Assembly (NCBI GenBank): GCA_018260755.1 | Contig: JAGTWP010000020.1 | Span: forward strand, 11,748-21,234 | DNA from: Candidatus Altarchaeum sp. | Lineage (GTDB): Archaea; Altiarchaeota; Altiarchaeia; Altiarchaeales; Altiarchaeaceae | Length of the DNA: 9,487 bases | Direction of reading: 5' to 3' | Shown: in pieces, positions 398-8,846 of the stretch | Position numbering within the stretch: position 1 is the first letter of the stretch | Layout of the letters: every line of letters begins with the position of its first letter | The notes under the pieces: generated by a model | Told to the model about the DNA's origin: nothing | Database searches by the model: none | What the model saw: only the letters and a program-made list of their open reading frames with translations | Made by a program: the position numbers and the translations under genes

Positions 398-477
398 ATA
401 CTGAAAATCTACAATATTTTCAATCTTACAAAATGTTTCAAACAGTTTGTAAATGTGCGAACGAAGTGAAGTCATTT
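398..477 (-). repeat. Dispersed palindromic element, single reverse-oriented copy
   Basis: Positions 398-451 are, by eye, the reverse complement of 5272-5325 with about four differences over 54 bases. It contains two hairpins: arms TGAAAAT/ATTTTCA (400-420) and a near-perfect pair beginning TACAAAATG and ending CAGTTTGTA (427-451). The adjoining 451-477 (starting AAATGTGCGAACG, ending GTCATTT) resembles, in reverse, the GC-richer palindrome that precedes the array at 4931-4958. The module order H0-H1-H2 is therefore the same here as at the main array. It lies between two divergent genes. I infer a dispersed repeat family. Confidence 0.8.
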
Positions 478-3046: not shown

Positions 3047-3520
3047 ATGGAAGATAGCGAAATAATTAAGAATATCAAATTAGTTGAAGTAAAGGATATA
3101 TGGATGAGCAGAGGAGTCAGGACGGTTGATATAAACGATGACTGTAAGATATTGAAGGAAATTTTTGATAACGGAAGCAAAGGAGTCCTTGTAAAAGATA
3201 TTTCTGAGTTCGGCGATGAGGAAATTGTTGGCTGGATTACAAAGGATAAATTTGAAAATTTTAAAGAAAACCGCGACTGTAAAGCTGGAGATATTATAAC
3301 CTCGCTTCGTTCGGATATTCCAAAATCTGGTGATTTTGAAATGAACAAAAATTTTGACAGAATTCATCCTGCATCAACAGTACTTGCTGCAGAATTAAAA
3401 TTAAAAAATACGAATGCCTTTGCACTTCCGATTATTGCGGTTCATTTCGGAAGGGAAATAGGTATGGGTTATTTAACAATTGAGGATATAGAAAATATAA
3501 AAAGAATGTATAAGAAATAG
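3047..3520 (+). CDS. Probable CBS-pair domain protein
   Basis: 157 residues, soluble. Two diverged halves look like CBS motifs. Residues 14-85 have 'VKDIWMSRGVRTVDINDDCKI...GSKGVLVKD...EIVGWITKDKFE...AGDII'; residues 104-150 have 'RIHPASTVLAAELKLKNTNAFALPII...GMGYLTIEDIE'. The strand-helix-strand plus 'G-(W/Y)-(I/L)-T-x-(D/E)' endings are characteristic. CBS pairs bind adenosyl ligands (AMP, ATP, SAM, NADH) and regulate partner proteins. No catalytic domain is attached. It is followed two bases later by a ferredoxin start, so the two are very likely translationally coupled. It may sense adenylate or redox cofactor state for the cluster (inference). Confidence 0.6.
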   Translation: MEDSEIIKNIKLVEVKDIWMSRGVRTVDINDDCKILKEIFDNGSKGVLVKDISEFGDEEIVGWITKDKFENFKENRDCKAGDIITSLRSDIPKSGDFEMNKNFDRIHPASTVLAAELKLKNTNAFALPIIAVHFGREIGMGYLTIEDIENIKRMYKK

Positions 3521-4027: not shown

Positions 4028-4837
4028 ATGAGCTCAAAAACAAAAATTTTAGCTGTGGTAGGAATTTTAGCTGTAATCGGAATTCTTTTGCTCAGCGGAT
4101 GCATAGATACAGAAGATAAAAATATACTTGATACGTCTTACAATAATACAACCATTAACAATTCAAACACAACTGTGAATACATCAAACACAACCGAACA
4201 AATAAGCAACAACACAAATAAAACAGATAATATAACAATTAACACGACCAATACGACCACCAATATAACAACTTCAATTAGCAACACAACAATAAACAAC
4301 ACAATGAACAACGCAACAAGCCACAACACAATGAACAACGCAACAAGCCACAACACAATGAACAACGCAACAAGCCACAACACAATGAACAACGCAAACA
4401 ACAAAACAGATGACACTGCTGCAAATACATCTTCAAATAAAAATATAACAAATACACCAATCTCAACAAATACACCTGAAACATCAGTACAAACAACAAC
4501 GATAAAAACAACAATAAAAAACATAGATGCAGAAGAGGCACACAAATTAATAGAAGAAAATTCAGATAATGAAAATTTTATAATAATAGATATAAGAACA
4601 CTATCGGAATTTAATTCCGGTCACATAAAAGACGCAATAAATATTGACTACTACGATAATGATTTTGTTGAACGACTGAATGATTTGGATAAAAGCAAAA
4701 CATATCTTGTTTATTGCCGAAGCGGGCATAGAAGCGGATCAGCAATGGAAAATTTTCAACAACTTAAATTCGGATTGGTTTATAACATGCTTGGAGGTAT
4801 AAATTCCTGGAGGTCAAATGGTTTTTCTGTTCAATAA
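4028..4837 (+). CDS. Membrane-anchored rhodanese-domain lipoprotein with Asn/Thr-rich linker
   Basis: 269 residues. A signal peptide (charged SSKTK, hydrophobic 7-22) ends in the lipobox LSGC with C25, so the protein is probably lipid-anchored on the outer face of the cytoplasmic membrane. Residues about 35-160 are a low-complexity Asn/Thr linker with about twenty N-x-S/T sequons, likely heavily N-glycosylated in an archaeon. It includes three and two-thirds copies of a nine-residue unit starting NTMNNATSH. Residues about 165-269 form one rhodanese domain: IIIDIRTLSEFNSGHI (185-200), active-site loop CRSGHRS with C230, and the closing LGGINSWRSNGF. The six-residue loop starting with Cys is that of active single-domain sulfurtransferases. 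The partner may be CcdA-delivered reductant or a sulfur carrier (inference). It is the last gene before the repeat block. Confidence 0.92.
   Translation: MSSKTKILAVVGILAVIGILLLSGCIDTEDKNILDTSYNNTTINNSNTTVNTSNTTEQISNNTNKTDNITINTTNTTTNITTSISNTTINNTMNNATSHNTMNNATSHNTMNNATSHNTMNNANNKTDDTAANTSSNKNITNTPISTNTPETSVQTTTIKTTIKNIDAEEAHKLIEENSDNENFIIIDIRTLSEFNSGHIKDAINIDYYDNDFVERLNDLDKSKTYLVYCRSGHRSGSAMENFQQLKFGLVYNMLGGINSWRSNGFSVQ
4298..4396 (+). repeat. 27-bp in-frame tandem repeat in the lipoprotein linker
   Basis: Three complete units (4298-4324, 4325-4351, 4352-4378) and an 18-base partial unit (4379-4396) are identical at DNA level. Each encodes the nine residues NTMNNATSH with one sequon (NAT). 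The DNA identity implies recent expansion. Copy number probably varies between strains, changing linker length and glycosylation without breaking the frame. Confidence 0.9.
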
Positions 4838-4889
4838 TAAATTTGTATTTGTTTATCTACTTAAAAAATTAAGTGTGAAAAGTGTGAAA

Positions 4890-4958
4890 AAATCACCTTG
4901 TTTCATTCGGAGATTTTTAAATAAATTTAAAAATCACCTCGCTGTTGCTCGGAGATTT
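4890..4958 (+). repeat. Two copies of a GC-richer imperfect palindrome (H0)
   Basis: Copies at 4890-4916 and 4931-4958 both begin AAATCACCT and end TCGGAGATTT, with diverged middles. In the second, 9 of 12 arm positions pair and the mismatches fall at the same places in the first. The second copy abuts the first TACAAAATG hairpin of the array. Similar DNA is at 5350-5379 and, reversed, at 451-477, each time next to a H1-type hairpin. The stretch 4838-4889 holds no gene. Confidence 0.65.
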
Positions 4959-5346
4959 ACAAAATGCTTTGCATTTTGTAAGATTGAAAATCTGAATATT
5001 TTCAGTATTACAAAATGTTCCAAACATTTTGTAAGATTGAAAATCTGAATATTTTCAGTATTACAAAATGTTCCAAACATTTTGTAAGATTGAAAATCTG
5101 AATATTTTCAGTATTACAAAATGTTCCAAACATTTTGTAAGATTGAAAATCTGAATATTTTCAGTATTACAAAATGTTCCAAACATTTTGTAAGATTGAA
5201 AATCTGAATATTTTCAGTATTACAAAATGTTCCAAACATTTTGTAAGATTGAAATCAAAAGATTTCAGTATTACAAAATGTTCCAAACATTTTGTAAGAT
5301 TGAAAATCTTGTAGATTTTCAGTATTTCAAAACTCTGGGTTTTGAA
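4958..5346 (+). repeat. Tandem array of alternating palindromes, 53-bp period
   Basis: A repeated pair of hairpins. H1 has 11-base arms TACAAAATGTT/AACATTTTGTA around a CCA loop; H2 has arms TGAAAAT/ATTTTCA around CTGAAT, joined by AGAT and CAGTAT. H1 is present identically at 5009, 5062, 5115, 5168, 5221 and 5272 (25 bases each), with a shorter variant at 4958-4980 (arms TACAAAATGC/GCATTTTGTA). H2 is identical at 4981, 5034, 5087, 5140 and 5193; variants at 5246-5271 (TGAAATC/GATTTCA) and 5297-5325 (TGAAAATC/GATTTTCA) keep pairing with different bases and loops. A further hairpin with arms TTCAAAAC/GTTTTGAA follows at 5326-5346. There are no unique spacers and no coding. Confidence 0.95.
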
Positions 5347-5349
5347 AAT

Positions 5350-5480
5350 AATTACAAGAGCAAATATGACGAGGTAATTTTAAAATTTCATAAATTTTAA
5401 AAGATTGAAAACTCATTTAAAAATGCTCCAGGTATTTTAAAAGATTAAAACCCTATATGTTTCAGTATAGTTTTCAGTAA
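5350..5480 (+). repeat. Diverged module with a second unit nested in its H2 loop
   Basis: An H0-like palindrome (arms AATTAC/GTAATT, 5350-5379) leads into an H1-type hairpin with perfect 11-base arms TTTTAAAATTT/AAATTTTAAAA around CAT (5378-5402). A H2 then starts (TGAAAACT, 5406-5413) but its pairing arm AGTTTTCA comes only at 5469-5476. Between them, 5414-5468 reads as another H1-like plus H2-like unit ending, like the array copies, in TTTCAGTAT. This is best read as insertion of one unit into the loop of another. The remaining bases to 5535 hold only the trxR promoter region. Confidence 0.7.
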
Positions 5481-5508
5481 AATCCAATTAACTAATCAAA
5501 TACATAAA

Positions 5509-5518
5509 TTTTATATTT
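5509..5518 (+). promoter_or_regulatory. TATA-like box for thioredoxin reductase
   Basis: TTTTATATTT is centred about 22 bases upstream of ATG 5536 with no Shine-Dalgarno between, consistent with a leaderless or near-leaderless message. It lies just after the repeat block, so the repeats would be upstream of this promoter rather than in the leader. Confidence 0.4.
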
Positions 5519-8152: not shown

Positions 8153-8846
8153 GATAGATATGGGTAGGAAAAAAAGGTGTGGCATTCCGGAAATTGTATT
8201 CGGAGAAAAAGATGGTAATGACTTGGTGAAAATAATAATTGAAATTTTAGATAATGATAGGAAAGTAATAATAACCCGACTTGATAAAACGAAAAAGGAA
8301 AAAATTTTAAATGAATTGAATAAAAAAAATATAAATTTTAAATTTAAATATAATGAAAGAGGAAGAGTGCTTACAATATATAAAGAAAAATCCGATGGCA
8401 CAAAAGATATTGAAATCGTTGGAAAAATAGGAATAATAACCGCAGGAACATCTGACATTAATGTAGCCGAAGAAGCAAAAGAGACGGCTTTGCAATTGGG
8501 CTGTGAGGTTGTAGAAGAGTATGATGTCGGAATTGCGGGCTTATACAGGGCAATAAACGCAGTTGAAAAGATGAAAAAAAGCAATGTCCGGTGTATTATT
8601 GTTATTGCAGGAATGGAAGGTGCTTTGCCTTCGGTAATTTCCGGATTAACAAACATTCCCGTAATTGCGGTGCCTACTTCCGTTGGTTATGGTACCGGAG
8701 AAAAAGGACTTGCGGCAATTATGACTATGTTAAATTCATGCACATCTGTTGCGGTTATGAATATTGACAACGGATTTGGAGCTGCTGTGATGGCGTATAA
8801 AATTTTAAGTATAAATTTAAGTATAAATGTGAATAAAGAAAAATAA
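8139..8846 (+). CDS. larB: LarB-type pyridinium-3,5-biscarboxylate mononucleotide synthase (PurE-like)
   Basis: 235 residues. LarB carboxylates and hydrolyses nicotinic acid adenine dinucleotide in the first step of nickel-pincer nucleotide synthesis, the cofactor of lactate racemase and relatives. The conserved opening IDMGRKKRCGIPEIVFGE (6-23) is followed by a diverged middle and the PurE-like domain (about 95-220). That domain contains GIITAGTSDINVAEEA, VEEYDVGIAGLYRA, VIAGMEGALPSVISGL and PTSVGYGTGEKG. The late LNSCTSVAVMNIDNGFGAA carries C201, matching the catalytic Cys region of LarB. The usual N-terminal helix (about 30 residues) is absent from this frame and seems to sit in the overlapping frame at 8015-8152; an in-frame stop lies just before ATG 8139. 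No larC or larE is visible in the window. The C-terminus has a small duplication (ILSINLSINV). Confidence 0.88.
   Translation: MKISKIDMGRKKRCGIPEIVFGEKDGNDLVKIIIEILDNDRKVIITRLDKTKKEKILNELNKKNINFKFKYNERGRVLTIYKEKSDGTKDIEIVGKIGIITAGTSDINVAEEAKETALQLGCEVVEEYDVGIAGLYRAINAVEKMKKSNVRCIIVIAGMEGALPSVISGLTNIPVIAVPTSVGYGTGEKGLAAIMTMLNSCTSVAVMNIDNGFGAAVMAYKILSINLSINVNKEK

Follow-up and report, generated by a model that had tools for sequence, protein, structure and literature searches.

The locus and its mobile element

The window (the whole stretch of 9,487 nucleotides analysed) belongs to a 1.32 Mb Altiarchaeum draft genome of 78 contigs (G000), and contains a rhodanese gene and a thioredoxin reductase gene (trxB), both checked for their gene domains, with an element of MITE family B lying between them (Table 1). 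The element landed directly after the stop codon of the rhodanese gene, separating two neighbouring genes. In another Altiarchaeum species (genome G003), the orthologous locus (L256) is a precise empty site with one copy of ATAAATTT and about 30 bp from the rhodanese stop to the trxB start, which identifies the window element as a MITE that jumped in. In the window, the left ATAAATTT copy overlaps the rhodanese stop codon by one base, its first. The first-pass annotation had placed the array before the promoter of trxB, a picture not supported by the empty ortholog, where the two genes are spaced as they would be in an operon. The element also has the inverted ends (GTATTTGTTTA../..CAAATAC) and the lack of coding capacity of a MITE; its outer ends are common to other copies in the genome, and other family B copies are likewise accompanied by 8-bp duplications (TGAAAATT, TAATTTTT, AAAAGATT and AAAAATTT). 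As a separate feature of the locus, the rhodanese protein includes a Thr/Asn/Ser-rich linker encoded by a 27-bp tandem repeat (window 4267-4405).

Table 1. Features of the family B MITE and its insertion site (window coordinates)
Feature	Position	Strand	Remarks
Left target-site duplication, 8 bp	4837..4844		ATAAATTT; basis: single copy in empty ortholog L256
MITE, family B	4845..5503	+	659 bp; no ORF of at least 80 aa
Left terminal inverted repeat	4845..4857	+	GTATTTGTTTATC (family consensus GTATTTGTTTAGC)
H3-type hairpin	4890..4916	+	AAATCACCTTGTTTCATTCGGAGATTT
H3-type hairpin	4931..4958	+	AAATCACCTCGCTGTTGCTCGGAGATTT; frozen internal mismatches
First H1 hairpin, variant	4959..4979	+	ACAAAATGCTTTGCATTTTGT
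Tandem array	4980..5326	+	seven H2 alternating with six exact H1; linkers AAGATTG...CAGTATT
Closing H1-type hairpin	5327..5345	+	TCAAAACTCTGGGTTTTGA
Second cassette	5377..5479	+	at GAGGTA^AAATTC of the 101-bp base MITE; ends CAGTA
Right terminal inverted repeat	5491..5503	-	ACTAATCAAATAC (family consensus GCTAAACAAATAC)
Right target-site duplication, 8 bp	5504..5511		ATAAATTT

Make-up of the hairpin array

The array is built from two hairpins, H1 (ACAAAATGTTCCAAACATTTTGT) and H2 (AAGATTGAAAATCTGAATATTTTCAGTATT). Six exact copies of H1 (starts 5010, 5063, 5116, 5169, 5222 and 5273) and five of H2 (starts 4980, 5033, 5086, 5139 and 5192) are present, as the first-pass annotation had counted. Its strict 53-base period applies to five successive spacings of the H2-type starts (the five above, then 5245 and 5296), the last spacing being 51. 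TRF, run on the window, gives a period of 53 with 6.8 copies and 96% matches (4972-5332), a unit number that is uncertain in a draft assembly with perfect 53-bp repeats, assemblies breaking at such arrays. Folded as single-stranded DNA, the array stretch lies far below its shuffles on both strands (z = -18 on the + strand, -17 on the - strand). AAGATTG and its near-inverse CAGTATT alternate all along the arrays, the alternating orientation familiar from REP/BIME repeats, and the array has no match in Rfam at the gathering score.

The commonest H2 of the window is imperfect (AAAATC/ATATTTT, with one broken pair, in AAAATCTGAATATTTT), and the rarer "variant" copies are the perfectly paired ones, which inverts the initial view of a regular H2 and its altered derivatives. 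The variant hairpins AAATCAAAAGATTT, AAAATCTTGTAGATTTT and ACAAAATGCTTTGCATTTTGT recur as whole units at many other loci. The window variants are thus whole hairpins and not point compensations made in place, and hairpin exchange between copies explains the local picture. A further H2-type hairpin (TACTGAAAATCTACAATATTTTCAATC) lies outside the array, on the minus strand (window 399-425).

Hairpin cassettes within MITEs

The array is cargo of the MITE, a point missed by the first-pass annotation together with the dispersal of the hairpins through the genus. The simplest family B copies, 100-101 bp long and hairpin-free, were found in G001 and G002, and alignment of 22 copies to the 101-bp base placed the inserts at a few fixed points. 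The insert at GAGGTA^AAATTC has the form [H1][AAGATTG-stem-CAGTA], with stems that vary between copies (AAAAC..GTTTT, AAACC..GGTTT), while that at AAAAAAT^AACTAC consists of H3 (ACCTC..TCGGAG) and H1, to which a series of H1-H2 pairs is added in some copies. H1 in these cassettes is a perfect palindrome, and H2 is AAGATTG-stem-CAGTA. The window copy is the longest of the family B copies aligned, its H1-H2 pair having been multiplied in tandem; its second cassette, the H2 of which holds a further nested insert, occupies an insertion point common to about ten other MITE copies. Arrays of the same grammar with other stems are present in CG2 and G002, which are possibly one genome.

The same kind of cassette occurs in several MITE families with differing ends. 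Family A MITEs (ends GTAACTATTCAG) carry related hairpins, and in G001 an IS66-type transposase gene with an internal stop lies between the same ends. A MITE with GTAACTACTCAC ends has an 8-bp duplication (TAAATAAC) and an empty site in the form of a duplicated gene region without the MITE; this internal empty site is seen on comparing L082 2440-2590 with 8380-8480. One family B MITE of G001 contains an IS630-like element (DDE_3, ends TAGTGTCTTGACAACTTAA) nested at TA (L299 469-1849).

Distribution in the genus

A search by pattern, which carried out genome-wide the check first suggested for H1 and H2, shows that the hairpins belong to a family of small palindromic repeats that is scattered through the genus and specific to it. 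The H2 pattern AAGATTGAAA N TTTCAGTA has 96, 37, 172 and 202 copies in four Altiarchaeum genomes, which are drafts of 65-87% completeness (65% for the genome with 37 copies), and one match among 97 other archaeal genomes; the reversed pattern, used as a control, has none in the four Altiarchaeum genomes, and with this control the pattern counts were judged sufficiently specific to be used in place of a covariance model. The related pattern AAGATTGAAA N TTTCAGTATT matches records of CG2_30_32_3053, HURL_140 and Altiarchaeales A3. The location search for H1 and H2, the H2 counts, the check for repaired H2 and the counts of MITE ends were genome-wide, while the distinct-hairpin, H3, gene-position and own-genome repaired-form counts were made on regions retrieved mainly near canonical hairpins. 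None of the 62 hairpin clusters in the stretches taken lies inside a naive ORF, and the repeats are, like REP/BIME sequences, imperfect palindromes of 20-40 bp in high copy at intergenic sites. Phage records gave no match to the hairpins; viral contigs gave 26 pattern matches (23-49 bp, each on a contig of its own, with no array reported), among which one contig (L242) was inspected.

Two observations concern coding sequence. An in-frame insert of 45 bp (window about 3293-3340) adds 15 aa, about ITSLRSDIPKSGDFE, to the CBS-domain ORF of the window (3047-3520) and is missing from the orthologs in G002 and G003. The insert holds one hairpin of H3 type (CCTCGCTTCGTTCGG) and one of H1 type (CAAAATCTGGTGATTTTG) and has the appearance of a hairpin cassette within a coding gene, reminiscent of the Rickettsia palindromic elements. 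At L295 2989-3648, the N-terminal part (KISEQSEVISKSKDFKISEQSEV) of an ORF resembling Sua5/TsaC by sequence resembles a translation of two H3 hairpins. As a feature of the assembly, about 17 contig ends of G000, read from coordinates, lie in or beside H1/H2 hairpins (e.g. contigs C7, C8, C13, C16, C21, C32, C42, C43, C45, C47, C52, C63, C66, C72 and C78).

Search for the mover

The mover is not a detectable Y1 (RAYT) transposase. The Y1 domain (PF01797) was found in none of the four Altiarchaeum drafts (65-87% complete), the control genomes being positive, and this candidate was rejected. IS605 TnpB (PF07282) is encoded eight times in G003 and once in G001, although no Y1 TnpA was found in either draft, and is lacking in G000 and G002; neither an H2 hairpin nor a MITE end adjoins the three tnpB genes inspected, and TnpB was also set aside. 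The IS66 transposase (PF03050), present in two relatives, has ends that match family A and not family B, and no family B ends were seen beside the ISAzo13 transposase gene in L082. No transposase with family B ends was found; the one long copy, L299, at first resembled an autonomous family B element but is the IS630-like insertion at TA inside a MITE.

Comparison with known systems

The Altiarchaeum repeats resemble the REP/BIME sequences associated with RAYT transposases (PMC2817692, PMC3733652) in being short intergenic hairpins with more than 100 copies per genome, arranged in tandem mosaic arrays of alternating inverted motifs, in which the stems change and the palindromes are kept. Nunvar et al. 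(2010, PMC2817692) described palindromes maintained among BIME copies and wrote of 'selection for complementary mutations', and RAYT cleavage in E. coli depends on conserved unpaired bases (PMC3733652). By contrast, the Altiarchaeum cassettes are AT-rich and archaeal, comprise three hairpin classes, are hosted in MITEs with 8-bp duplications, and have no GTAG/CGTC terminal tag, the conserved linkers AAGATTG and CAGTA (CAGTATT) standing in its place. Given the absence of both the tag and a Y1 transposase, the system is called REP-like, and is not REP proper. REPINs (PMC3116915) are likewise mobile miniature hairpin units in inverted pairs with preserved palindromes, but are RAYT-dependent and of GTAG type, and the Altiarchaeum cassettes are neither.

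The host elements correspond to IS-derived MITEs in their inverted ends, 8-bp target duplication, non-coding interior and empty ortholog, and family A corresponds to IS66-type MITEs through the match of its ends to the element in G001; family B differs in that its interior is a growing string of hairpin cassettes common to other MITE families. Rickettsia palindromic elements (RPEs), which end in CGTC (PMC3733652), are also palindromes able to sit in frame in genes, as in the CBS-domain insert, but are unrelated in sequence, and most Altiarchaeum copies lie outside genes. A literature search, itself incomplete, found no published description of the Altiarchaeum repeats.

Covarying stems

The first-pass annotation had read the variants as keeping their arms complementary. 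Within the window this comes down to whole swapped modules, but across the genus the stems do covary, the arms changing in matched pairs. In 71 distinct H2 hairpins from the fetched regions, the outer five arm positions are 94.1% paired, compared with 78.4 +/- 1.5% when the arms are reshuffled and a maximum of 83.9% in 2000 shuffles; in 37 distinct H1 hairpins the value is 91.6%, against 79.1 +/- 1.8% reshuffled. Shared ancestry of the copies inflates this test, and the number of distinct states weighs more than the z-score. Several stem pairs take three Watson-Crick states: the inner two pairs of H3 are GC/GC in 57 hairpins, AC/GT in 50, AT/AT in 15 and GC/GT in 5, with other combinations seen once. 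Pairs were counted from both ends of the hairpin, because MAFFT misplaced the left arm of H2 variants of unequal length.

Frozen mismatches and competing explanations

The H2 linkers AAGATTG/CAGTATT pair across the stem except for one G.A and one T.G, and H3 keeps A.A, T.C and C.T in 94 copies (T.T and tandem G.A on the other strand); in both hairpins the mismatches are flanked on each side by paired, partly covarying positions. Repaired H2 (GATTGAAA..TTTCAATC) was found at two places genus-wide, one a real hairpin and one a chance match, versus 507 canonical copies, and was not seen in the own-genome stretches; repaired H3 was found in none of the pooled fetched stretches, versus 94 copies with the mismatches.

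This bears on template switching (quasipalindrome correction), in which one arm is copied onto the other and palindromes regenerate without selection, the MITE and the tandem expansion being unchanged. The mechanism is established for imperfect inverted repeats, where it homogenises the arms (PMC8604942, PMC7202029), and it would accommodate both the matched changes in the stems and the change of whole loops along with the arms. However, a switch spanning the stem would repair the two H2 and three H3 mismatches, and the near-absence of repaired forms already strains this explanation, which we consider unlikely. Of the initial alternatives, selection on the folded form fits better than a copier that regenerates palindromes. 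The frozen mismatches in otherwise paired stems disfavour template-switch homogenisation and favour recognition of a folded strand, as with REP/BIME repeats; that this would be single-stranded DNA read by a protein is our inference from the mismatches together with the strand preference and gene orientations given below.

The closing G-C pair of H2 appears as G.T in 17 distinct hairpins versus A.C in 6 (binomial p about 0.03; hairpins from the fetched regions), and this preference for G.T suggests folding of the AAGATTG strand rather than its complement. The same preference would suit an RNA role, in which transcribed hairpin strings act in message stability, processing or termination, or in protein binding, with selection acting on the RNA fold. 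The predicted RNA fold of single H2 modules is below that of shuffles on the G.T-tolerating strand, and the window element sits within what is a two-gene run in the ortholog. Against this, the orientation of the hairpins to flanking tandem genes is unbiased (9 same, 14 opposite), an argument against any general role in messenger RNA; the mismatches of H3 fit the other strand better, the array matches no Rfam family, and presence at the locus is not conserved between species. An RNA role comes next in probability and is likewise improbable.

A third explanation treats the hairpins as passive repeats, carried by MITEs and shuffled by homologous recombination through their shared linkers, the compensated stems being old alleles and the fold going unrecognised. 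The recurrence of the window variants as whole modules elsewhere agrees with it, as do the homologous cassettes that carry different stems at one MITE junction. It does not account for the near-complete pairing of distinct stems in four species alongside freely varying loops, nor for the three complementary states of the H3 inner pair, and is very unlikely. A CRISPR-like array or an assembly artefact, suggested by a tandem array with conserved GATTGAAA-like bases and by the contig ends at such hairpins, which make the copy number uncertain, can practically be dismissed: the hairpins adjoin directly without unique spacers and H1 and H2 are both repeated, as was noted at the outset, other Altiarchaeum assemblies hold independent arrays built on the same grammar, and the assembly resolves both the unique flanks of the MITE and its target duplication.

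The best explanation, and a probable one, is that the array consists of expanded REP/BIME-like hairpin cassettes within a non-autonomous DNA transposon (MITE), the cassettes having spread as recognised, folded single-stranded DNA. The hairpin-free form of the MITE would be ancestral, and cassettes would have entered it as folded single strands. A putative protein would recognise the hairpin through the frozen linker bases and mismatches, leaving the rest of the stem only to pair; stems could then drift by compensated steps, or be swapped whole by recombination between the shared linkers. The homologous flanks of neighbouring cassettes would permit unequal exchange or slippage, and with it expansion of the array. 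A bolder proposal, conceivable but doubtful, posits a system in Altiarchaeum that works without RAYT: it would mobilise and amplify the hairpin cassettes in the form of folded single-stranded DNA, under a recognition rule of its own that combines frozen linker mismatches with a free but paired stem, and insert them into transposons, intergenic DNA and even genes.

Significance

REP/BIME biology has been described in bacteria, where it is tied to RAYT enzymes. The Altiarchaeum hairpins are a real REP/BIME-like cassette system in Archaea, a dense and genus-specific family in an uncultivated archaeon. With no detectable RAYT, they make it possible to test cleanly whether repeats of this kind depend on that enzyme, and their matched stem changes and frozen mismatches offer a test of what reads the fold. 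The repeats also explain part of the fragmentation of Altiarchaeum assemblies, and their arrays provide strain markers for this dominant subsurface organism.
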